NCBI GenBank assembly: GCA_024220525.1
Contig: JAMYWO010000152.1
Span: forward strand, 32,989 to 96,988
Direction: 5' to 3'
Source of the DNA: Cochliopodium minus
Taxonomy: Eukaryota; Discosea; Himatismenida; Cochliopodiidae
DNA length: 64,000 nt
Positions 1,836-59,174 of the stretch are shown here, in pieces. Below the pieces are notes generated by a model. That model saw only the letters and a program-made list of their open reading frames with translations, was not told the origin of the DNA and searched no databases. The translations under genes were made by a program, and so were the position numbers. Position 1 is the first letter of the stretch. Each line of letters begins with the position of its first letter.

Positions 1836-3045
1836 TTGGTGGAGGAATATTCTTTGGGTTATTCTTCGGTGTAAAATATAGTTTCTTTTGGGTTGTATAA
1901 AATGCGCCAAAAAAAAAAAAAAAAAAAATTTAAATTCCCTCAGTATATATGAACTATTAATAATCCCAATAATAATTGATTAATTTGATTGATAGATAAC
2001 ATATAAAGAAATCACAGCAAAGAGTAAAATTTTTCTTTTTTTTTTTTTTTTTTTTTGAAAAGAAATTTCAAATTTCATTTAATTTTTAAAAATGAAAGAA
2101 AGCTATGCAACATCCAACTGTACCATTCAATCCACTAGAATCACCCAGAACCCTACTTACTGTTCACGTAACAACCAAAACTGCTACCAAGTAAATATGA
2201 ACGTAGAATACTGTAAATACAAAAAAAAAAAAAATCAAAAAAATCCATTTTTATAATCCCTTATTTCAAAAAATAAAAGATAATGATTTAGTAAAGAAAC
2301 GTAAATAATTTTTTAAATAATTTTTTATTTTTTGTTTTTAATTTTGTCAAAAAAATAAAAAAAAAATTATTCGAAAAATAGAAATTGTTACAGTTGCATA
2401 CAGTAAGAAATTTTAATTTTAAAAATTTCTTAAATGAATTATTTTTTTTAAAAATTTTTTTTTTTTTGAAGACAGTTTTGAAGGAAACTACAAAAGTTAC
2501 TCCACTTGCTTGGTCTTCCAAGCCAGTCATCCAGTAGGATCCTCATGGACTTGCTACTTTGACAGAGGCAATCCCAACACTGTCGTCTTCAATTTTGATC
2601 ACAACACTGGTGCTATCATTGGTGAAATTGTAGGAGGCATTTTCTTCGTTATTGCTGTTTTTGCTTGTGTAAATAATTTTTTGAAATTTTTTAATTTTTT
2701 TTTTTTTTGTATTATTTTAAATTTTTTTTTTTAAATTTTATTTATGTTATTTTTATAAAAATTTTTTTCAAAGTTTGGTAAAATGTGCCATCATCACCAT
2801 CACGGCGGATACCAACCAATTAACTACGATCACGGCCACCATGGAGGTAAAATATTTTTGGATTAATTTTTTTTTTATTAAATTAATTAAAATGTTAAAT
2901 TTATTTTTTTGTTTTAGGAAATCGTGGTCACCATCATCATGACCATCATGGTAATTAATTACAACTTTTTAATTAATTACAACTTTTTGATTAAATTTTA
3001 ATTTTATTTTTATTTTAATGTGCAGGTCATCACCATCACCATTAA
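1836..3045 (+). CDS. Two-span membrane protein, cluster member 1, with His-rich tail
   Basis: First of six paralogues. Supported exons are 1836-1870, 1996-2023, 2099-2212, 2280-2300, 2382-2402 and 2472-2668, then three short exons up to 3045. An earlier exon probably ends at 1762, but its start codon is unresolved. The first span contains GGGIFFGLFF. The loop carries SNCTI, a Cys pair, the motif MNVEY, then SHPVGSSWTCYF and VVFNFDHN. The second span follows (GEIVGGIFFVIAVFAC). The C-terminal tail is unusually rich in histidine (clusters of 4-6 His with Gly) and is built from small exons. Two spans with an extracytoplasmic cysteine loop resemble BK-channel beta subunits in topology, and the HPVG...C motif recalls DUF3592. 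Both are weak analogies and the function is unknown. Confidence 0.75.
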
Positions 3046-3225
3046 AGATCCCATGTGAAATAATGGAAATTCAAAAGTTTTTAAATAAAATTAGAATTAA
3101 AAAAGAAACTTTTTTTAAAAAAAAATGTAGTTTTTGTTTTATTTTTATTTTTTGAATTTATTTTTCATAATTTATTTATTTTCTGTTGAAAAAATTTTTT
3201 TTTAATTTTAAATTTCTTTTTTTAT

Positions 3226-4287
3226 TTAATTGATTTCGAAATAAGTGCCTTTGTGATGATGATAATGAACGGACTTTACAATGATCAAGATTAATCCCAA
3301 CAAAAACAAAATTCCTCCCACTATTTCCGCTACAAGTGCGTTCGTGTTGTGCTCAAAGTTGAATACTACTGTGTATTTGTTTGCTGTGTCATAATAACAA
3401 GCGTAAGTCCCACCAACTAAGAAAATAAAAAATTAAAAAATAAATATAAATTAATAAAATAAAAATTTAAAAATTTAAAAATAAAAAATATAAAAATAAA
3501 AATAATAAATAAAAAAATATAAATTAAAATTATAAAATAAAAATAAAAAATTTTATAAATAAAAATAAAAAAAATGTAAATAAAATTTTCATTACTTGTA
3601 TGTGTTAACAAAAATTCATGTGCAAATGCATAAGTTCCATAATTTCCTTCAAAACTATCTTTTAAAATAAAAAAAGTTAAGTTAATTTTGAGAGAATGAA
3701 AGAGACTTACTGTATGCAGTCGTTGTTATGGAATCTAAAGATTTTTGATTGATTTTGATTTTTCAGAAAAAAATTTAATTTGCTGAATTGGAATTTTCCA
3801 TTTCTTTTCTCAAATTTTTTTATTATTTATATGTTACCGTATGTCACATTCATTTTTACTGCATATACAACTGGACATCTTGAGCAAGTTGATTTATTGA
3901 CTATCTCCATCGAAAGGATGGTACAATTGGTCGGTTTAAAATTTTCTATTTGTAATATTGAAAGGATATAATTCTAATGAGAGATGTTAGTTATGAATAG
4001 AATATCATTTACCTTTTGCTTTGATTTCTATGTAAAAATAAGATTTATGAAATTTTTATTGAGGGAAAAATAAATTATGAGAGAAATTATTTACCTTGAT
4101 ATGTATCATGGAAGAAGAATCCAAGAAATAATCCCAATCCCACTATTTATATATTTTTTTCCAACGTACATATTATTTTCAATTATTTAAAAATTTAAAT
4201 TTGTTCTTGATTTTTACACAACATTATAAATAAAAAGAATATTCTCAAGGCATTATGATGATTATGATGATTTGTTCCTTTTGCCAT
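3226..4287 (-). CDS. Two-span membrane protein, cluster member 2 (inverted)
   Basis: The only member on the minus strand. Exons, 5' to 3': 4218-4287, 4095-4142, 4013-4027 (15 bases), 3838-3945, 3711-3734, 3596-3658 and 3226-3416. All phases agree with the other members. The N-terminus is MAKGTNHHNHHN, followed by a span containing GLGLFLGFFF. The loop has TNCTI, TCSRC, AVKMNV, then GGTYACYYD and VVFNFEHN. The second span (AEIVGGILFLLGL) leads to a short tail, SVHYHHHKGTYFEIN. The proline of the HP(V/I)G motif is replaced (THTIGG, across an intron). It is convergent with member 1, about 180 bases away. Confidence 0.8.
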
Positions 4288-4833
4288 TATTTTTTTTTTT
4301 AATTTATTTTCGAAAAATTTTGAAAAAAAAAAGAATTATAAAAGTTAGAAATTTTTTTTTCAAATTGAAACATTAAATGATACTTTAAAGTTTAAGAAGA
4401 ATTCACTAATTTTATGAAAACCCTTTTTAAATTTGAAATACCTTTTTAAATTTTGAAATACCTTTTTAAAAAGTTTCAGAAAAAATAGAGGTTGATCTTT
4501 TTTAAATTCAATTTCAAAAAAAAAAATTCAGAAGTATAATTTTTTTGCTACCCATCTAAGTTTTGATCTCTTTAAGAACAAAATTTCTGTTTAAACATTA
4601 AAAGGGATATTTAACAAAGGATTAGATTCAAAAGTCAGATTATTCATTTAATTAAATTTTTTTTCAAATTTTAAATTATTTTGGAACACTAAACCTTTCT
4701 TTTTGTAATTTGATCACTTTTCGTAAAACTACTCCAATAACTTTAAATTTAATTTTTTAAGAGAATTCAAAATAAAAAAATCTATTTTTAAGTGAAAAAT
4801 TAAAAATTAAAAAAAAAAAATTTGAATGTATTA

Positions 4834-5641
4834 ATGGAAGATAGATACGATCATGATTATCTTAAAAAGATCATCAATTCAGCAAGCATCATTGTAGTCA
4901 TATTTCTTGGCAAATATATAATTCTCCTCCAAATAAAAAAAATTTTATTTTTGAAAACTTTTATATAGTGGGATTGGGTTTATCAATTGGATCGTTATAT
5001 TTTATCATCAAAAGAACAAATGAAAGGAGTAATATATCCCATTATTTTTTTACATTCAAACAACTGATTGCAAAAATAATTTTTTTTTTTTTAAGAATCT
5101 TTTATTGATACGACGTGTTTGATATTGAATGCACAAATCCAAAAATCTGAAAATTCTGGATCGTATAGATTGAAAATGCAAGTGGAATATTGTAAAATAA
5201 AAAAAGTTATCATTCGTATTTTTTTGTTGACATATTCAATATTTTAAAAAAGATAATTCAATATTCAAAAGAGAAATCACAACGATTGCATACAGTAAAA
5301 AAAAAAATTTTTAATTTTTTATTAATTAAATTTAAATCTTTTTAAAATCATATTTTATAACTCTTTTCAAAAAAAAAAAAAAAAAAAAAGACAATTATGA
5401 TTCTAATTACGATATTGAAATGGAAGTTTTAACATTTCTGCTGACACATAACATAAACTCTAAACTCACATGCTACCACGAAAAAGAAGATGTAACGAGG
5501 GTTGTATTTTCTTTTGACCATAACTATGCCTTAGAAGTGATATCCTACCTTTTTTCGACCATTTTAACTCTTTTTTCCTTTTCAATGCTCATGCTCATCG
5601 TTTTTAAATTTGACAGAAGCAAAATAGTTGAGTCAGAATGA
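4834..5641 (+). CDS. Two-span membrane protein, cluster member 3
   Basis: Exons 4834-4909, 4969-5028, 5096-5191, 5253-5294 and 5391-5641. The first intron begins with GC (position 4910), which is the only donor that keeps the frame with the family; later introns use GT. The N-terminal span contains VGLGLSIGS. The loop has TTCLILN, MQVEY, EITTIAY, THNINSKLTCY and VVFSFDHN. The HPVG motif is degenerate here (HNINSK). A long second span (about 25 residues) and a short charged tail ending VESE complete the protein. It is among the more diverged copies, so its function may have drifted. Confidence 0.75.
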
Positions 5642-5914
5642 TGATTTTATTTTTTTTTTATTTTTATCTTCTCCTTTTGTTTATTATTAAAATTATATTA
5701 TTTATTTGTAATCTGAATATTACTTTGAAATAAACAAAACTTTTCGCAAATATTTCAACAGTTCAAGATTATGACATCATTTTCCTAAGTCTTACTTAAA
5801 ATTAAAACTTCAATATATTGACTTAAAAAAAAGAATAAAATTAAAACTTGATTTTAAATTTAATTTAAAATTAAATTTTGATATTTAATGAAAAAAAAAA
5901 AAAAAAAAAAAAAA

Positions 5915-6910
5915 ATGGGCAAGGGATCAAACGGTACAAGATCAGCTCTCCTCTTTATTTTAGTTTTGTTTTTAGGTGATATTAATGAAATCCTTTATAT
6001 ATTTTTTATATTTTTATCCTCAAAATAAAAGCTGGTATCGGGGTTTTCTTTGGATTCTTTTTCAGTTATACTTTCAAGGAAATTCAAGCCAAGAGTAAGA
6101 TTAATTTTTCCAAATCCGAAAGAATATATTTTAAATGGGTTTTTAAATAACAACAAGGAATCAAATACCATCAATATTATAGATATAAACAATCATTATA
6201 ATTAAATATCTCAAATAATATACCTGATATATATTCTCTTTACTCCATCCCTTATTTAAAATTAAATTTTCTCCTTCAATTTTATATTTTTGTTCACAAA
6301 CAGAAAATTTCCTTCATTCAAATTGCACGATATTGACATCAATAATGGATAAAAAGAGAAGATGTGGAAAGAATTCATGTTCAACAGTATATGCAGTATT
6401 AATGCAAGTGGATTATTGTGAGACAATAAAAACCCTTTAATTAAATTCTTAAATGTAATAACCAAAAATAGTTAATCCACAATTAAACAGAGAAATAGCA
6501 ACGATTGCATATAGTAAGATCAAATTAATTTTATTTTATTTTTGAAATTTCAAATTTCAACTCAAAATTTTTTATTAATTTTATAAAAAATATCAATAGA
6601 TAGTTTCGAAGGAAATTACAATTCTCTGAATAATGCCATGTCTTTCGTTTTGACTCATCCAATAGGAAAAGATTACCCTTGCTACTATGACGCAAGCAAC
6701 CCAAACACTGTGGTTTTCAACTTTGATCACAACACTATCGCAATCATTTATGAATCAATAGGAGGCAAATGTTTTTTAAATTCCATTTAAATTATTTTTA
6801 ATTAAATTTTTTTTTTCAAAGGTGTTGTTGCTTTGATTTCACTTTTGTTTCTTGCAATTCTATCATGGAAGAAATGTAGGAAGTCAAGTGGATATGATTA
6901 TATCAATTAA
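5915..6910 (+). CDS. Two-span membrane protein, cluster member 4
   Basis: ATG at 5915 directly follows a run of about 25 A. Exons 5915-5975, 6032-6094, 6304-6417, 6472-6513, 6600-6764 and 6822-6910. The N-terminal span is hydrophobic (LLFILVLFL then AGIGVFFGFFF). The loop has SNCTILTS, RRCGKNSC, AVLMQVDY, EIATIAY, THPIGKDYPCYYD and VVFNFDHN. The second span is followed by a short basic tail ending SGYDYIN. The last intron may start with GC at 6765; a GT at 6771 would also keep frame and add three residues. The 63-base second exon is the same length in members 4, 5 and 6, and as split exons in 1 and 2. Confidence 0.8.
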
Positions 6911-11755: not shown

Positions 11756-14700
11756 TTGCTCCAATGCACTGTAGAGTACATCTACTTTGGGCTGAATAAA
11801 AGTTATTTTTTCTTGGAAAGATTCAATGAACAGCATGCTGGTTATTTTTTGGGAGAGCATAGGAATATCACAAATCACCAACAAAAATTGTTCAGGCTAT
11901 AAAAAAGAATTCAAAATATTAAAATTAAAAAAATATTAACATTAACTAATAAAAAATAAATAAGAAAAACATCTAAAATGAAAAAAAAATAAAAAATAAA
12001 TAAGAAAAACATAAACAAAAATAATATTAAATCAAAAATTAAAAATAAGTTAAAAAAAAATAAAACATTTTAAATGAAATGAAAAATAAAAAACATTAAA
12101 TAATGAACAACATTTTGAAGAAAAAAAAAAAAAATATTAAATAATGAAAAATAAAAAAAATAATTTTTTTTTTTTTTACTTGATCCAACATGGAGCTGTT
12201 TCCATCATTACTCTTGACATAGTTGGTCAAAGTGGTGACTTCTTCAGTAGTGGGGACATTTTCCAAAAGTTTGGACAAAGCCTCCGCATCCAAAACTTTG
12301 TTGTCCACGTTCAGAATGGCGTCTTTCACTTCCATGGCGGTCTTTTTGAAGCTTTTGATGAAGATGGAGAGACCCTTGGATCTTTTTGGGTCTAAGAGAG
12401 AAATGGCTTGTGGTTTGCTTTCTGTTTTGGTGACTGATGTGGGTTGTTTGGTTGCAGCAGCAAAAAAATTTTCGATTTCTTTAAAGTCTAGATCGATTTC
12501 TGCAAAAAAAAAATAATAAAATTAAAAATAATAATAAAATTAAAAATAATAAAATAATTAAAAAAAAAATGAAATATAAAAAAAAATAATAAATTAAATA
12601 TAAAAAAAATAATAAATTGAAAAATAATAAAATATGAATAAAAATAAATTAATATTGAACAAAAAAAGTAATATTGAATCAAAAATAAAAAAAATTTATA
12701 ATTAAAATCAAAAAATAAAATAAAAATAAAAATATCATAATAATGAAAAATAAAATAAAATTAAAAAAGTAAAAATCAAAATCAAAAGTTTTTTACGTTT
12801 TGGATCAGGATTGAGCTCATCAAAAATAGTATCTTTAGTTTGTCTTGGTTGCAACTTTGTCCAATTGAAAAGCTTAAGAGCTGTTGTTGCATTTTATGAA
12901 AAAGAGTGAGAAATTTATTGAAATGAATTTGGTTTTGAGAATTTTTTTTTTTTTTTGATTTTACCAACAGTTGGTTTTGGGATGTTCAACTCTTTCTTCT
13001 TTTGAGAAGTGGGCATAAGACCTAAAATTTTGAATTGTGAAAATGAAAACAATAAAAACAATAAAATGGAAAAAAAATTTGAGGATATACCAGGAGGAGG
13101 AGGGCCACCAATACCTGGGGGAGGAGGAGGGCCGCCAAAATCACCTGGAGGAGGTGGAGGAGGTCCGCCAAAATCACCTGGAGGAGGGGGAGGTGGTGGA
13201 CCGCCAAAATCACCTGGAGGAGGAGGTGGAGGAGGTCCGCCAAAGTCACCTGGAGGAGGAGGTGGAGGAGGCCCGCCAAAATCACCTGGAGGAGGTGGAG
13301 GAGGAGGCCCGCCAAAATCTTCGGATGGAGGAATAGGAGTGCTCTGGAATTCACCAGGTGGAGGTGGTGGTGGACCAAATGATTCGTTGGAAGTGCCCAC
13401 ATTCTTTTTCAAGCTTTGGATGGTTTCTTCTTTGACCAAAAGTTCCTTTTCCAAGTTTTTGATCTTCAAATCCAACTCCTCCACTTTCTTCTTCAGCTCC
13501 AATTCTCCTTTGTAAATATTTTCCATACTTGTGTTGTGAGTGGTTTGAGGGCCCTTTTCTTCGAGTTTCTTGATTTCGATTTCCAAGTTCTTGATCTGAA
13601 AAGAAAGGTTGTCATTCCTGTTCTTGAAATCAACTTCATGACGATTGTACTCATCAGTAAGATTAGAAATCTTTTCTTCTTTCGTTTTGAGCTCTTTCTC
13701 GAGGTGGCTGATAGTAGAATTGAGGAGGCCAACTTGTTGGTTGTCCTTGGAAGACATGGAGATGTTCAAACTGTTCTTGAGATCATGGATGGTCTCCTCC
13801 TTCTTGTTGAGTTCCACCTCGAGATCCTTGATCTTCAAAGAAAGCGAATCGATGTTGTTCAACATTTCCTTTTGTACGTTCTCGTCAATAGGAGGAGGTC
13901 TGTTGGAGCTGATGAACTCAAGATTCTTCAAATTTAGGTTCAAACCTTCAATCTCCTTGATCTTCTTCTCAATCTCCAAATCCTTTTCTTTGTTTTTTTC
14001 TATTCCCTCACTGAGTTGTACTTTGAGTTTCTCATAATCATCATTCTTGATTTCCAATTCGGCCTGGAGTTTATCTACGTCTCCCAAACTCATCAAAGAC
14101 AAAGTGATACCCTCTCCTATGTCTATCTTATCTTTTACAGTGGTGAGTTGTTTTGTCAACTTCTCATGACACTCCCATATCTTGAGTCCATTGTTGGTGT
14201 CGGTAGGAAAGAAGATGAGACTTTGCATAACAGAGTTGAAAAGAGATTTTATTTGGTAAAAAGATCCGATCTTCATCATCAAAGTCTCAAACAGTTTGCT
14301 TTCGTTATTTTTGTCGTTTTCGGAGATTACAGGCAATATTTCGTTTAGTTCCTCGTTATCCGCCGTTTCATCTTCTCTAAAATTCTTTAGTTGGAGCATG
14401 AAATCTTGGTCGTTTTTCATTTTAGTTTCTAATTCATTCAAAACTTGTTTGATCCCCAATCTTAAAAAACTTTGTCTTATTCCTATTCTAACGTCTATCT
14501 CATCAGGATCATTAATGAGTGAATTAATTAGAATAAGTAATGATGTTTTTGCTTCTAATTTTGGATCATTCTAAAAATAAATGTTTTAAATGGAAAATTT
14601 TTAATTGAATTAATTTTTTTTTGAAAAAAAATTACCTTCAATATTTCTACAAGCCCAATGAACAATACTTTCTCTTTATTTATGTACTTGAAATATTCGA

Positions 14701-49454: not shown

Positions 49455-52400
49455 ATGGATCAACAAATATCTACAATTAGATTAAAAGAGAAATTAAAGG
49501 ATCACGTGAGAACAAGAGAACTTAGAAATAATCCAAATTCCAATATGATGAATCCAAATAATTCGGGTATGCAGAGATCAATGATATCTCTTACTTCAAA
49601 AGATAGTCAAGAGAAAAGAGATTCAGAAGCATACACTGTATTTTTGAATTGGATATTAAAAGGTACGGATTTCAAAGTGAATGATATCTATAAAGATTTG
49701 AAAAATGGTGAAATTGTGGCCAAACTTACCGAGAAATTGACAGGAAAAGAAATCAGATATAACAAGAATCCTAGAATGATTCAAAAGAAAAGAGAAAATT
49801 TCCATATAGCCTTCGAAGCATTGAAGAATGATGAATATGCTAAAGCCGTTCGTGGTATCAGTGCTGATGGTAAATAAAAAATAATTTGAATTGAGAAAAA
49901 TGGCTTATTTTTCCATATTTCACTTCAATAATAGATTTCGAGAAATGTGAGGAAGGAAATACTGATAATATTGATGTCACAGCAGTTTTTGGTTTCCTAT
50001 GGCAGATCATGTTACAATATAAAAATTTGCATTTCAGTAAAACCAAGCAAGAAACAACATCAGGAATGACCAAGGAAGAAATTTATCTGATGCAATTACA
50101 AAAATATATTATAAAGGATTATGTTGATAAAGTATGGAAAATAAATGAACCAACAAATGAGTTGATAAGTAAACCAATTCTTTCAATTCAAAATTTCACA
50201 TTTAAATTATAAATTTAAAGATAGGGTAGATGGAAAATTCAATCTTGAAGATGAAAATTGTTATGTATGTGTAGGAGAAATGCAATTATTTGACAGCACA
50301 GAAAAATCTGCAATTATTTATGTCCGTTATGGAAAGAATTCATCTGAGAAATCCCGCAAGGATGCAGATGCATTCGCTGAGAAATTGATTCAAGAATGTG
50401 GAAACAAAAACATAGGTATTTCAACACAATATCAAGATAAGGAAAGTGATCATTTCATCAAATTTCTTGGATTCAAGCCTACTCAATGGACGGAATACAA
50501 AAAAGAAAAGTTTAAACTTGATGATGTTGATTCTCTTTCTTTATCTCCCTTGAGCACAGGAAGTGAGGAAGAAGAAGCAAAGATTCCTCAGGACGATATC
50601 ATTTTGTACAAAGGAAACGACGAGGGGTTGTTTTGCGTTGGGGACAAGACTCATCTGGATCCTTTCAAAGTTGGACCATTATACCACGAAAAGTTTGGGA
50701 GATCTATGACTGTTTGCCACGCTAGATCACTACCTGACTTCTTTTGTAGTGCTCTGAAGGAACAAAAGGTGGAAGAAGTAGAACCCACCGAGGTTACTTT
50801 TAACATATACAGCAAGAACGATCCCAACAAGAAAAAAGTTTTGGTTCCAAAGGAGCTTGTGGGTAATGAAGATGCATTGAGAAAGTTTTTGAAAGAGAAA
50901 CTTGGTTTGAATTATCTTCCTAAAGTCATCAAAGAAAAAGAAGAAAACGGAGAAGTAGATGCTTTCTTGGAGGTTCCTCTCATCCCTTATTTTGTTTCAT
51001 TTGAAGATGATGAGATCAAGAAAGAAGAAGAAGTTTTGATTCCTGCTGACAAAACAGGAGACAAAGAAATTTCCGAAGAGATCAAAAGCAAACTCAACTT
51101 GGAATTTACCCCGATTATTGTATCAAAAGAATTGAAAAATGATGTTCCTCATTTAATGTTGAAAAGACCTCTTGTTGAACACAGTGTCTTTTTCGAAGAT
51201 TCTCCAAAAGAAAAGTTCAACCAAATGATTCCTTTCCAAATTTCATCTGACAAGAACAAGTTGGCTCCATTTCTCAAAGAAAAATTGAACTTGCCTTATA
51301 CACCTGTCATTTTGGAGAGCTACAAAACTGGAGAAACTTACCAAACAATCTTGAAGAAACCAGATCTTCGTCATGTCATTCACTTTCATGATAAACCAGA
51401 AGAAGAGTTCAACTATTTGATTCCTGCAGATATCAGCTTTGATGATAACAAACTTTCCAAACATCTCCAAGAGAAGATGGGACTTGATTTCCTTCCTTTG
51501 ATCGCATCAAGAAAAATAGAAAACGAAGAAGTTAAAGTTGTACTCGAAAGAGGAAGTGTTGAGTTCGAGGTTTCAGTTAAAGGAGACAAAAACAAAAGAA
51601 AGGTCTTGGTGCCAGGGGATCTTATTGGAAATGAAGAGGCTTTGAAAAAGTTTTTGAAAGAGAAACTTGGTTTGAACTATCTTCCTAATGTATTGAAAGG
51701 AAACAACAAAAATGAACTCATTTTGGAGCCTCCTCTCATCCCTTATTTCGTTTCATTTGAAGAAGATGATGTCAAAAAAGAAGAAGAAGTTTTGATTCCT
51801 GCTGACAAGACTGAAAACAAAGATATTTGTGAAGAGGTTAGAAACAAACTCAACTTGGAATTTACTCCTATCTTTGTATCCAAAGAATTGAAAAATCATG
51901 TTCCTCATGTATTGTTGAAAAGACCATTTGTTGAACATTCAATCTTTTTCGAAGATTCTCCAAAAGAAAAGTTCAACCAAATGATTCCTTANNNNNNNNN
52001 NNNNNNNNNNNNNNNNNNNNNNNNNNNNNNNNNNNNNNNNNNNNNNNNNNNNNNNNNNNNNNNNNNNNNNNNNNNNNNNNNNNNNNNNNNNCATCTGACA
52101 AGAACAAGTTGGCTCCATTTCTCAAAGAAAAATTGAATTTGCCTTATACACCTGAGATCTTGGAGAATTACAAGAAAGATGAAGTTTTTATGACTATCTT
52201 GAAGAAACCTTTGCTTCAACATGTTGTTTCCTTCTCAGACAGTCCCGAAACAAAAGCTAACATCATGATTCCTGCAGATCTCAGTGAAGATGATAACAAA
52301 CTTTCCAAGTATCTTCAAGAGAAAATGGGTCTTGATTTTCTTCCAGAAATTGCTTCTAAGAAAAGAGAAGGTGAAGAAGTAAGAGTTTTGCTTGAAAGAC

Positions 52401-55400
52401 CTGATATAGAATTTGAAGTTTCAGTTAAGGGAGATCCAAAAAAGAAAAAAGTTTTGGTTCCTCAGAGCATCGCATCGGATGAAGAGAAGCTCAAAAAGTT
52501 TTTAAAAGAGAAACTTGGATTGAATTATCTCCCAAACATCGTGAAAGGAAAGAACAAGAACGAAATCATTTTGGAAGCCCCTCTCATTCCATACTTTGTT
52601 TCATTTGAAGAAGATGATGTCAAGAAGGAAGTAGAAGTTTTGATTCCTGCTGATAAAAATGATAACAAAGAAATCTGCCAGGAACTGAAGGATAGAATGA
52701 AATTGGATTTTACTCCTATTATCGCTTCGAGGGAAATGAAAAATGATGTTCCTCATTTGTCGTTGAAAAGACCACTTGTTGAACACACAATATTTTTCGA
52801 AGATACACCAAAAGAGAAGATAAATCAAGCTATTCCATATCACATTTCAACTGACAAAAAGAAATTGGCTCCATTTCTCAAAGAAAAGTTAAATTTATCG
52901 TACACACCTGAGATTTTGGAGAATTACAAGAAAGATGACAATTTTTTGACCATCTTGAAAAAACCATTGCTTCATCATTCAATCCACTTTAAGGGTAAAC
53001 CAGAAGAAGAATTCAACTTTATGATTCCTGCAGATCTCAGCGAAGACGATGATAAACTTGCAAAACATCTCCAAGAAAGAATGGGTTTGGAGTCGCTTCC
53101 TGGTATCATTTCGAAGAATGTCGAAGGAGAGGAAGTTAAAGTTGTTCTTGGAAGGCCTGACATTGAATTTGATGTTTCTGTGAAAGGGGAGAGTGGAAAA
53201 AGCAAGGTTTTGGTTCCTGAACACATTGCAAACAATGAAGAAGAATTGAAAAAGTTTTTGAAGAAAAAGTTAGGATTAAAGTATCTTCCAAACATTTTGA
53301 GAGGAAAGAACAAGAACGAAATCATTTTGGAACCAAGTTCTGTTACTTACTATGTTTGTTTTGAAGAAGATGAAGAGGATGAGGAAGAGGTGGAGGTGTT
53401 GGTTCCATCTGATATAACTGACAACAAGGATATTTGTGAGGAATTGAAGGAGAAAATGCAATTGGAATTCACTCCCATCATAGCATCTCGTGATGTTGAA
53501 GAAGATGGAACACATTTGTTGTTGAAGAGACCACTAGTCTCACATTCCATTTATTTCGAAGATTCTCCCAACGAAAAGTTTAATCGTGCAGTGCCTTATC
53601 ACATATCATCAGATAAAAAGAAATTGGCTCCATATCTCAAAGATAAATTGGATTTGCATTACACCCCCGAAGTATTGGAAAACAACAAAGAGGATGGAAA
53701 AGTAAATACAGTATTGAAGAAACCAATATTGCATCATGTTGTATGTTTTCAAGAAAAACCAGAGGAAGAATATAATTTCATGATTCCTGCTGATATTAGC
53801 TATGATGAAGAGAAATTGGCAAGAAATCTCGATCAAAGAATGAATCTTGGCTATTTGCCGGAGATCATATCCAAAACACCTTCTGAGAATGAAGAGATAA
53901 AAGTTGTGCTTGGAAGACCTCAAGTTGCTCACATCATCCATTTTGAAGATACACCTGGATACAAATTCAACTACTTGATTCCTAAAGATATGAGCGATAA
54001 TCCAAAGAAATTGGTTACATTCATCCAACAGAAGATGGCTTTGAAATACATCCCTATTGTTGTATCTTCTGATCCTCAAAAAAGCGGAGAATTTGTTACT
54101 GTTCTTAGAAAACCTGATGTTGCACATACATTTGTTTTCGAAGATCAGCCGACCATAGAACACAAATTGCAGGTACCTGTTGATAAAATCGAAGAAGATG
54201 AGCTTTGTCAATACGTCAAGGATCAATTAGATTTGGATTTTTTGCCTGAAGTTGCATCAAGAAACGAGCAATTCAATGGAGAAGTCATCGTAAAGTTGAG
54301 AAAACCTACCATCAAATATGCCATCAAATTCGAAGATCAACCTTCTCAGAAGTATGATTTGAATCTTACTGCAGATCATCCTAAAGATTACACCTCTTTG
54401 GCTCATTCTTTTCAAAAGAAATTAAACTTGGAGTTTCTTCCAATTGTCACATCTACTTTAACTAAGGAGGATGGTGTTGTAGAAGCGATATTGAGAAAAC
54501 CAGAGTTACAACATCTTGTATTCTTTGAAATGACGCCTGAAAAGAAACAAGTGATCTCTGTTCCTTCTAATCAATCTCAAAGAAATGAGATTTTATCTGC
54601 TTACATTCGCAGCAAAATGAACTTGACGATAACACCAAAGATCATCTCCTCAAAGAAAGTAGATAAGGAGTTTGATGGAAAGAAGATAGATTATGAAACC
54701 GTCATTGCTGCAACACAAATCAAACATATCATCTCATTTCCTGATGATAAATCTTTGGGAACACAAACACTCATGGTCCCAGAAGATAAATGCTTCAACA
54801 AATATGCTCTTGCTGATTATCTTAAAGAAACCCTCAACATTCCATACACTCCCATCATTGCCGCACAAGATCTTCAGACAGATGGAACTGTAATGGCAAA
54901 TGCTAGATCTCCTGCAATTCCTCACGAAGCATACTTTAAAGATAAACCTTCTGAGAAGTATGATTTCTCGATCCCCGCAGATATTTCCAACGATAAGAAA
55001 CAACTCTCACAATTCTTGAAACACAAAATCAACGTTCCTTATTATCCTGTCATTGAATCTTCCAAAGTCAAAGAAAAAGATGGAAAATCATTTGTTGAAT
55101 TGATTTTGTCCAAACCTCTGATCTCTTGTGATATCCTCTTTGAAGATTCACCATTCAAATCCAATGAACATTTGGATATACCTGCAGATTTATTATCTGA
55201 TTATCCTAAGCTCTGTGAACAGATCAAACGTGATTTAGATCTTGATTTCTTGCCTGAGGTTGTAGATATTCTTAATGATGACAACAATCACTCTCAAATC
55301 AAATTGAAAAAGCCCAAAGTATCCTTATTGGTATCTTTTGAACATAATCCTGAAAAAAAGACCTTGGTACATCTTCCTTTGGATGCGATGAAGAGTGATA

Positions 55401-57757
55401 ATGCATTGGCTGATCAATTGAAGAAAGAATTCAAGCTTTTGAGTGTTCCTGAAATTGTATCCAAAGGAAAACAGAATGGCCAAGATTACGTGGTGATCAG
55501 AAAAGAATTTGTGACATCTCATGTTGGATTTGATGATAATTCCGAGAAGGATATGTATTTGATTCCTGGAGAGATGTTCTTGGACAAAAAAGAGCTCGCA
55601 AGATATCTGCAAGAAGAAAAATCTCTTCCATACACTCCAATCATCGAATCTATCGTTTGCAATGATGATAATACTGTTGAAATAGATCTTGGATATCCTT
55701 TGATCAAACATTCTGTCTACCTATTCGATAAAGGACAAGAGAATCTCTTGAAATCGATAGATATCGATGCTGAAAAGACGTTTGGAAAAAGAGAATCTCT
55801 CTTGAAAGAAGTCAAACAACAACTCAAACTTCCTTACGATCCCATCTTTGTTTCTCACAAGAAAGAAAGCGTCACCAGCAATGTTTATAAACTCGTAATT
55901 TGTTCTCCATTCTCCACACCAAGAGACCAATCTGAATCTGAAGAAATATTAGTAGAAGGACCAAGAGCATTCGCAGGCAGACGTTTAGATCCTTCTAGAG
56001 ATGTCATCATTGAAGAATCAGAGTCCTTAGGATCTTCTCATCGTTCTCCACATAACTCTTCCACTATACCTTGCAGAGTGTATGAAGATGACAACAGAGC
56101 TCGCAATATTGAGGTTCCCTCTAATCTTTTGTACAATCAAGGGAGATTGAGTGATTTCATAGAGGAATCTCTGAATTTGTCATACACACCGGAGATTCAA
56201 GGAATCAGAGATAACAACATGGGTGGCAAGGATATCACTTTGTCTTCCCCTTCTTCTTCTGCTCACATCACATCCAACGATGATCCCAAATTGAAATTGG
56301 ATTTGAAGGTGCCAAGCAAGGTCTTGAAAGATAATCATTCCCTTTCTGAATTCTTGAGAGATAAAATTCCATTGCCTTACACACCTGAAATCTTATCTAA
56401 TGTGAAGGGAACATACAAAGATTCTGTTGATATCATCATTGGAATCCTAAAATCAATTCACAAAATTGAATTTGAAGGAGAATCAAAGAGAGATACCAAG
56501 TTGATGGTGCCTGATTATATGGTTGAGCCAAAACCTAAACTCCATCAACTTTCCTTCTACTTCAAACAAAAGTTGGACTTGGATTACAATCCCGAGATTC
56601 TTTCCTGCAAGAAAGATGGAGATAAAGTGTACAGAACAGTGTTGAGCAACATGGACGGATACAAAAACTATCACATCAAAATAGAAAGTGATCCAAGTTT
56701 CAGCAAAGTTTTGAAATTCCCTGCAAACCTTTCTGACGGAAAATTGGAGGATGAAATAACACATGCACTCCGTCTTCGTTCACCTCCCAAAATTTTGGAA
56801 AGAATTCAAAGATACAACGAAGAAGAGGTTACCATTTTGGTTCCTACCAACCAACCTTTGAAATCTCCAAACAAAAAATCTCGTTTGGATGAGGATCCTG
56901 AACCTTTGTTTTACGATAATTTGTTGTCTGGTGATAGAAAACAACAGAAACCACCTACTCATCGTGATCGTGATCGTGATCGTGATCTTGACAGTCATCG
57001 TAATCGTGAAGATAACAGTGAACATCATCAGTATCATCATGATGTGAGAGATAAAAGCAATGGCCAATCTACCTATAAAAAGAAAAAGGTTGTGTATCAT
57101 ATCCATCATTACGATTCCAACATTGATAAACATATCTACCACAGAAACACTCGCAACACCTACGTCAATTATGATGAAGAAAATCATCGTCACAGAAAAT
57201 CTCGCCACCATTCTTCTCACAACGATTACGATACTGATTACCACAGAGAAAGAAATTCCCACAAAAATAAAGTTAGATCAGATGGATTGTTTCATGGATA
57301 TGCTACTGCTTACATCGCCAAAGAAAACCGTGCTTTGGTATGTGAAGGTAAACTCAGAACTGCCAAAGGAAATTTTGTACATTGCTGTTTGTATGATGAC
57401 ATCTTTCTCATTACTAAATCTGACGAAGAAAAAGTCAACTTTGAAATCATTTCTTTCATCAAGTTTGCTCCTGGTGCGGAAGTCAGGGAGTCCAGTTCTT
57501 ATGACAATGCTTTCCGTATCACCTCTGGAAGTCAAAGTAAGATTTTCATCTGTTCTTCAAAGAAAAACATGAATACTTGGATTGAGTTGATCAGTAATGT
57601 GTTGTTAGAGGTAATAAAAAATTTACAACATTTCTTTTTTTTTTGTTTTTGAATTTACTTTTTCTTTTTTTCTTAGAATTTTGGGGTTGATTTTCAGCAT
57701 GATGAAGATGATAACAATAGACTCAAAAAGAAAGATAAAAAGAAGAAACATAAATAA
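49455..57757 (+). CDS. Giant CH / gelsolin-like / repeat / PH protein
   Basis: Exons 49455-49869, 49935-50168, 50221-57610 and 57677-57757; more than 2,600 residues, with a gap inside. Residues about 60-215 form a calponin-homology domain (AYTVFLNWILKG, DLKNGEIVAKLTEKL, then FGFLWQIML). Two gelsolin-like segments follow, one with IIYVRYGKNSSEKSRKDADA and one with DIILYKGNDEGLFCVGDKTH. Then about 30 copies of a roughly 64-residue unit run from about 50790 to 56880. Each reads approximately H-x-I-x-F-E-D-x-P, IPADIS, KLAxFLKEKLNLxYTPEI, ILKKP. The first 16 form four sets of a four-unit super-repeat. An RD/H-rich disordered stretch precedes a C-terminal PH domain (RALVCEGKLRTAKGNF to NTWIELISNVL). 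It probably links actin to membranes; the repeats match no family I know. Confidence 0.88.
50790..56880. repeat. About 30 tandem protein repeats of ~190 bases, with a ~750-base super-repeat
   Basis: Units 1-4, 5-8, 9-12 and 13-16 repeat as blocks. Type 1 has VLVP...FLKEKLGLNYLP. Type 2 starts IPYFVSFEEDD. Type 3 starts VEHSxFFEDSPKEKFNQ. Type 4 has KPEEEFNxMIPADIS. Units 17-30 are more diverged and lack this periodicity. The homogeneous 5' part points to recent block duplication. Confidence 0.9.
51992..52091. other. 100-N assembly gap within the repeat array
   Basis: Lies inside repeat unit 7: the left flank ends KEKFNQMIP and the right flank resumes SDKNKLAPFLKEKL. A continuous unit would need only about a dozen bases here, yet any whole number of super-repeats could also be missing. 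Confidence 0.95.
56961..56990. repeat. CGTGAT hexamer repeat
   Basis: About four CGTGAT units encode Arg-Asp pairs in the disordered linker between the repeat array and the PH domain of the giant protein. Confidence 0.8.
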
Positions 57758-58394: not shown

Positions 58395-59174
58395 ATGATA
58401 AATACTAAAAAGACTATAATCGTGAAAAGAAATAACAATACCCAAAATAATAATCATATCGAAAGAGAAAATACTAATAATAACAATAATAAAAGAGATG
58501 TACAAAGAAATAGGAATAACAATAAAAATATTAAGGAATATTCAATGAAAATAGAGAATAGCAGAAGAAAGATAACTATAAAAAAGAATAATGGAGATGA
58601 TAATTCTATTGAAAAGAAAAAGGAGATAGATAAAAGAAATAAAAATGGAGGAAATAAGAAAAATTTTGAGAATAATAAAAATGATAGAATAAAACAAGAG
58701 GAGAACAAAAATAAAGAAAAGATAAGGAATAATAGGGATAATTATAATAAAAGAGAAAATAAAAATGTAAATAATAATAACAATAATAATAGACAAGAAG
58801 AAAAACTGATTATTGATACTAATAACGATATATTGAGTAATGATAGACCATCATTGTTGGGAAATAAAAATATATTTTTACAATTCTTATTGGACTCAGA
58901 GAACATCGAGATGGAATCAGATGATGATGAAGAGGATGAATTCATAGCATCCACTGTCTTCAACAGGATCTCTTATTCCCATTCAAGTTCTAGTGATGAG
59001 GAAGATTGTTGTGTGGATATCTGCTCGATCTGCCAAGATGCATTCGAGGAGGGTCAGATAATCTCTTCATTGCCTTGCAAGCATCCTTTCCATTCTGAAT
59101 GTGTTGAAAGTTGGTTGAGGATAAAATCATGTTGTCCTCTATGCAATCTAGATCTATCATTAAATCCTTATTAG
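58395..59174 (+). CDS. RING-H2 zinc-finger protein, probable E3 ubiquitin ligase
   Basis: Intronless, 259 residues. Residues 1-150 are low-complexity, very rich in Asn, Lys, Arg and Glu, and surely disordered. An acidic patch (MESDDDEEDEF) and a serine run come before the C-terminal RING-H2 finger (about 211-254). Its pattern is CSICQDAF, LPCKHPFH, SECVESWL and CCPLCNLD: Cys-x2-Cys, Cys-x-His-x2-His-x2-Cys, Cys-x2-Cys, so all eight ligands are present. RING-H2 domains recruit ubiquitin-charged E2 enzymes. Membrane spans are absent, so it is likely soluble. Substrate unknown. Confidence 0.88.
   Translation: MINTKKTIIVKRNNNTQNNNHIERENTNNNNNKRDVQRNRNNNKNIKEYSMKIENSRRKITIKKNNGDDNSIEKKKEIDKRNKNGGNKKNFENNKNDRIKQEENKNKEKIRNNRDNYNKRENKNVNNNNNNNRQEEKLIIDTNNDILSNDRPSLLGNKNIFLQFLLDSENIEMESDDDEEDEFIASTVFNRISYSHSSSSDEEDCCVDICSICQDAFEEGQIISSLPCKHPFHSECVESWLRIKSCCPLCNLDLSLNPY

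Follow-up and report, generated by a model that had tools for sequence, protein, structure and literature searches.

A giant Cochliopodium minus gene carries a predicted ubiquitin-fold repeat array behind a CH and gelsolin-like head

The rods of actin-linker proteins are known to be built of immunoglobulin (Ig), spectrin or coiled-coil units, and in plectin, spectrin and the spectraplakins a long rod of spectrin repeats or coiled coil serves membrane or filament linking. Here, we describe a giant gene of Cochliopodium minus whose rod is predicted to consist of ubiquitin-like domains. The gene occupies positions 49455..57757 of a 64,000-nucleotide stretch of DNA (the window, G000:C152:32989-96988), which belongs to the 44.65 Mb genome of 598 contigs that we searched.

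Filamin (ABP-120/gelation factor) resembles the window gene in placing an N-terminal CH-based actin-binding region ahead of a tandem, beta-rich rod. However, filamin has two CH domains (PMC2651865), whereas the window gene has one, together with a gelsolin-like region and a PH match, and the filamin rod is made of Ig-like repeats of ~100 residues, six in Dictyostelium (PMC2211301), rather than ~30 predicted ubiquitin-fold units of ~64. Consecutive ubiquitin-like domains, which are a fold match to the window unit, form F0-F1 in the extended, linear head of talin, an integrin-associated cytoskeletal linker (PMC2977851). Talin has two such domains, followed by F2 and F3, whereas no FERM (F2/F3) or I/LWEQ match was listed at E up to 1 in three pieces of the window protein, and no sequence relation to talin emerged. 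The window CH domain is closest to that of plectin and also matches spectrin, and a long rod is common to these proteins, but the single CH domain and its gelsolin-like partner set the window gene apart from plectin, spectrin and the spectraplakins. Tandem ubiquitin folds, as predicted for the window array, also occur in linear polyubiquitin, the ubiquitin-like (UBL) domains of USP7, FAT10 and ISG15; the array differs from all of these in its cytoskeletal flanks, its lack of GG ends and the absence of any sequence similarity in our searches. Actin linkers that pair a CH head with a repeat rod are a known kind of protein, and it is the rod material that we did not find described in the open-access literature. 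Our searches of it returned no title or abstract on a protein with CH, gelsolin-like, UBL-array and PH parts, and none appears in the parts of PMC8305917, PMC1949818, PMC2651865 and PMC3188802 consulted. The main text of the last, a comparison of the D. discoideum and D. purpureum genomes, names two CH proteins, both unlike the window protein, and contains neither 'gelsolin' nor 'ubiquitin-like', which is no proof of absence.

The window gene runs on the + strand from an ATG at 49455 to a stop at 57757, the same limits that an initial annotation of this DNA had given, and its basic observation of the gene is borne out. Four exons (49455-49869, 49935-50168, 50221-57610 and 57677-57757) are separated by introns that are all of the GT...AG type, with splice sites inferred from the sequence alone. 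The product has at least 2,671 residues (~309 kDa excluding a part hidden by an assembly gap), 806 encoded upstream of the gap and 1,865 downstream. The gap, 100 Ns at 51992..52091 in the third exon, falls within a repeat unit termed C2, and 8 bases would complete this split unit if it is otherwise intact. In order, the gene encodes a CH domain, a gelsolin-like region, ~30 small domains that belong to a single family, a polar segment of low complexity and finally a PH-like match.

A hidden Markov model (HMM) of the unit, iterated from two starting units, found 31 stretches in the window protein (11.4-81.3 bits). Two of these (11.4 and 50.4 bits) are the halves of C2 that flank the gap, leaving 29 whole units (32.9-81.3 bits) and one split unit, in agreement with the ~30 copies of a ~64-residue repeat noted initially. 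Median unit length is 64 residues, with 28 of the 29 whole units spanning 60-71; the remaining one is extended to 122 by an inserted linker. Among 400 shuffled sequences (200 per protein piece), the best of 530 weak matches at a lax limit reached 8.1 bits, and a chance or low-complexity origin of the units was rejected on this control. The first 16 units (50793..53923, + strand; 15 whole plus the split C2) are a duplicated four-unit block, ABCD repeated four times. Across the 15 whole units of this block, mean identity is 0.63 for the 21 same-type pairs and 0.30 for the 84 pairs of unlike type. The ABCD phase is preserved on both sides of the gap, and since whole super-repeats may be hidden there, the number of units given here is a minimum. 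The following 14 units (53924..56863, + strand) are diverged, with a mean pairwise identity of 0.24 (91 pairs) and a Ser/Glu-rich linker inserted among them at ~55913-56068.

Synonymous changes predominate between units of the same type, a pattern that resembles purifying selection: the proportion of nonsynonymous differences (pN, 0.10-0.35) lies below that of synonymous differences (pS, 0.30-0.82) in all 21 same-type pairs. Synonymous distance (dS) is saturated in 6 of the 21, and the youngest pair, B1-B2, has a dS of 0.38. The array therefore looks old and constrained rather than freshly expanded. Of 13 well-conserved columns in the unit, 11 are hydrophobic or Pro, and no charged surface patch common to the units is visible.

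Structure prediction from a two-unit alignment (A3; four-unit alignments slipped out of register) gave a predicted local distance difference test (pLDDT) score of 94, with five models at 91.4-94.3. The predicted unit has a beta-beta-alpha-beta-beta order and superposes on ubiquitin, so that the beta N-terminal half, helix, YTPEI turn and final strands read earlier from the letters are right by this prediction. In a structure search with the predicted unit, all 50 matches listed were consistently ubiquitin-like; the single-domain matches among them aligned 57-68 residues at 2.1-2.9 Å, with one exception at 9.0 Å. With good confidence, the units are predicted to be compact ubiquitin-like (beta-grasp) domains in which two strands precede and two follow a helix, with about two non-strand residues joining consecutive units.

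Despite this predicted fold, no kinship of the unit to ubiquitin was detected in sequence. The ubiquitin model PF00240 matches the genome 82 times at E up to 0.001 and the RA model PF00788 twice at E up to 0.01, in no case within the window gene; for RA, this result does not bear on GTPase binding. A Pfam scan of 30 units at E up to 1 yielded no PF00240, PF00788 or filamin match, and profile-profile comparison with the ubiquitin family, represented by 17 hand-picked PF00240 matches of the 82, gave a probability of 1.3%. Filamin likewise has no match at E up to 1 in the window protein pieces. On these sequence searches, membership of the filamin, talin, RA or ubiquitin families was rejected. 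The unit profile did draw 11 forms of NDUFA10 of complex I (best E 0.0014, 34 of 64 positions) and one esterase (E 0.15) from the PDB, and these we attribute to chance, as they span no more than half of the unit. TEA (E 0.0011), DUF6702 (E 0.0038) and eight further Pfam families, each found in one of the 30 units, were also judged chance. The initial annotation could match the repeat to nothing known and named a catalogued ubiquitin-like or RBD-type fold as the contrary case; that no sequence library tried (Pfam, PDB sequences) names the unit still stands, but its predicted fold is ubiquitin-like, with no link to the ubiquitin or RA families detected at the sequence level.

The single calponin-homology (CH) domain (49638..50020, + strand; residues 62-167) is split by intron 1 (49870-49934) and matches PF00307 at 30.5 bits (E 4.3e-7), over the cut-off of 26, which makes the product a CH-domain protein, as first annotated. 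Among the 33 PDB chains that a search listed with E no higher than 1, plectin 4q57 ranks first (E 6.2e-5, chain residues 17-149), and spectrin, fimbrin, filamin and related chains are the other best relatives. As the matches lie near the N-terminus of the chains, the window domain appears to correspond to the first CH domain of plectin, spectrin and filamin. The second CH domain of a classical tandem-CH actin-binding domain was not found, the spliced N-terminal 405 residues containing one CH stretch.

The gelsolin-like region with its C-terminal extension (50223..50792, + strand) matches DUF7904 at 20.6 bits, below the cut-off of 30, has no match to the Pfam Gelsolin model and drew nothing from a PDB sequence search. 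Its label, like that of the PH match, draws in part on relatives elsewhere in this genome. In a single comparison, the region is 32% identical over 161 residues (E 3e-18) to a frame at locus L030:3456-3995 on contig C37, and both gelsolin-like copies of L030 match Pfam Gelsolin (16.2 and 16.5 bits) under the cut-off of 21; at a severin-like locus on C79, Gelsolin (90.1 bits) and DUF7904 (21.5 bits) match one stretch. Behind the array, an Asp/His/Arg/Ser/Asn-rich low-complexity stretch (56864..57313, + strand), probably disordered judging by its composition, leads to the PH match (57380..57598, + strand; PF00169 at 17.3 bits, cut-off 25.1). A relative of the latter (30% identity, E 6.3e-6) closes an otherwise Ser/Thr/Glu-rich frame at G000:C162:31052-31315, and a PDB search with the PH piece listed mainly WD-repeat chains (E 0.1-0.5) and one exchange-factor chain (E 0.9). 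The gelsolin-like and PH labels proposed initially have same-genome relatives in their favor and sub-threshold scores against them.

At E up to 0.01, a genome search with the CH and gelsolin-like head returned 14 matches, of which three fall in the window gene itself. The sister loci were read from domain matches and open frames. C148 (E 1.1e-13 and 6.6e-11), C535 (E 5.3e-14 and 5.3e-13) and C37 share the CH plus gelsolin-like head; on C148 and C535, coiled-coil-like sequence takes the place that the array and PH match have in the window gene, and the C535 locus then runs into Ns. On C148 (L051, ~2878-6586, + strand), the CH, gelsolin-like, coiled-coil-like and C-terminal hydrophobic parts lie in series, the hydrophobic span ending 4 residues short of the stop, an interaptin-like layout. 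C37 has two CH domains and two gelsolin-like copies; the latter are near-identical tandem frames behind the CH domains (L030:3456-3995 and 4176-4679, - strand) and represent alternative exons or a recent duplication. On C2, a CH domain 44% identical to that of the window precedes Asn-rich sequence with no gelsolin-like match, and weaker head matches lie on C207, C11 and C8.

We give an even chance to the reading that the window gene encodes a giant cytoskeletal tether with an actin-binding head, a membrane-binding PH domain and a ubiquitin-fold spacer array. The CH and gelsolin-like head would bind actin, the PH domain would bind phosphoinositide membrane, and the chain of ubiquitin folds between them would act as a rod or string, setting the actin-membrane distance and bearing load. 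The array may thereby do the job of the Ig domains of filamin, or of the coiled-coil-like sequence in the sister genes. The best argument for a spacer is that coiled-coil-like sequence appears to stand in for the array behind sister heads, once with a terminal hydrophobic span. The actin-to-membrane spacer of the initial annotation is plausible, then, and gains from the sister loci, although that interpretation as a whole is supported in part. More tentatively, as possible rather than probable, we propose that the unit belongs to an unnamed family of minimal ubiquitin-fold domains that was block-duplicated into a rod of ~30 or more, making the tether spring a non-processed, polyubiquitin-like chain and a eukaryotic cytosolic counterpart of the filamin Ig rod. 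If true, a ubiquitin-fold rod would be a new building material for actin-linker rods, and one genome that joins a similar head to either coiled-coil-like sequence or a predicted ubiquitin-fold array provides a natural experiment on the requirements of a cytoskeletal spacer. Mechanical predictions for such an array are directly testable, ubiquitin being a standard subject of single-molecule pulling experiments.

The main rival to the tether is a multi-docking scaffold at the actin cortex, whose units would bind small GTPases or other partners, with types A-D differing in what they bind. Talin F0, part of a listed fold neighbor, binds Rap1b (PMC5701058), and rods can be scaffolds, given that Dictyostelium filamin repeats 2-6 are each required for slug phototaxis, while the repeats are not a major determinant of filamin localization (PMC2211301). 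The divergence between types A-D alongside likeness within each, with pN below pS, would also fit, but block duplication explains the same-type likeness as well. With no RA match in the array, conserved columns that are mostly hydrophobic or Pro and no shared charged patch visible, we regard a scaffold as rather unlikely. A wrong fold assignment, with the unit being some other small alpha-beta repeat, is improbable in view of the high scores of all five models and the uniformly ubiquitin-like, mostly close structure matches. Hardly credible is a polyubiquitin-like precursor cut into free modifiers: its units would likewise be ubiquitin-like and head-to-tail, and ordinary head-to-tail ubiquitin matches do occur in this genome (for example on C141 and C148), but GG ends none of the 29 whole units and occurs anywhere in one, most units close on a Pro and one further residue (the Pro is present in 23 of the 30 aligned units), with about two residues predicted between strands, and CH and PH matches stand at opposite ends of one gene. 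Processed polyubiquitin was rejected for want of GG ends; units that lack them are unlikely to be conjugated or to be cleaved from one another.

Beyond the window gene, which accounts for 28 of the 29 genome matches to the unit consensus at E up to 10, the unit was found once, on C136 (35.6 bits with the unit HMM). There, a separate small gene (L009:4551-5249) has one window-type unit followed by many Ser-Pro-Arg-rich repeats, and a charged exon downstream may belong to it. By these matches, the unit occurs as a lone domain on C136 and the head in combination with other rods; both come together in the window gene. The CH/gelsolin loci L030-L033 hold no unit by the HMM (best 9.1 bits), and the C-terminal units have a weak match at C19:228484-228993 (E 1.29). 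Distant copies could be missed, since the consensus search goes exon by exon and scores only the best candidates. Phage records gave no match, and pattern matches in viral contigs (16) and prokaryote genome contigs (32) included no relative. The ABCD super-repeat, the gap, the fold and these related genes are additions to the initial annotation.

Dicty_CTDC is a repeat linked with dictyostelids, and the genome has at least 150 matches to it. The 14 control genomes, apparently without a eukaryote, gave no match even for ubiquitin and are therefore silent on its specificity. Dicty_CTDC matches at G000:C80:3551-8071 and G000:C128:26076-30596 have equal spacing and scores, as though a single giant gene were present as two alleles or had recently been duplicated. 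In the window itself, a 205-residue open frame antisense to the array (53609-54226, - strand) is probably a by-product of the codon use of the repeats. Downstream of the gene, 58395-59174 (+ strand) encodes an Asn/Lys-rich protein with a C-terminal RING-H2-type motif, and at 12915-14459 (- strand) a probable coiled coil is followed by tandem PPPPPPPGDFGG repeats that are formin-FH1-like, both read by eye.

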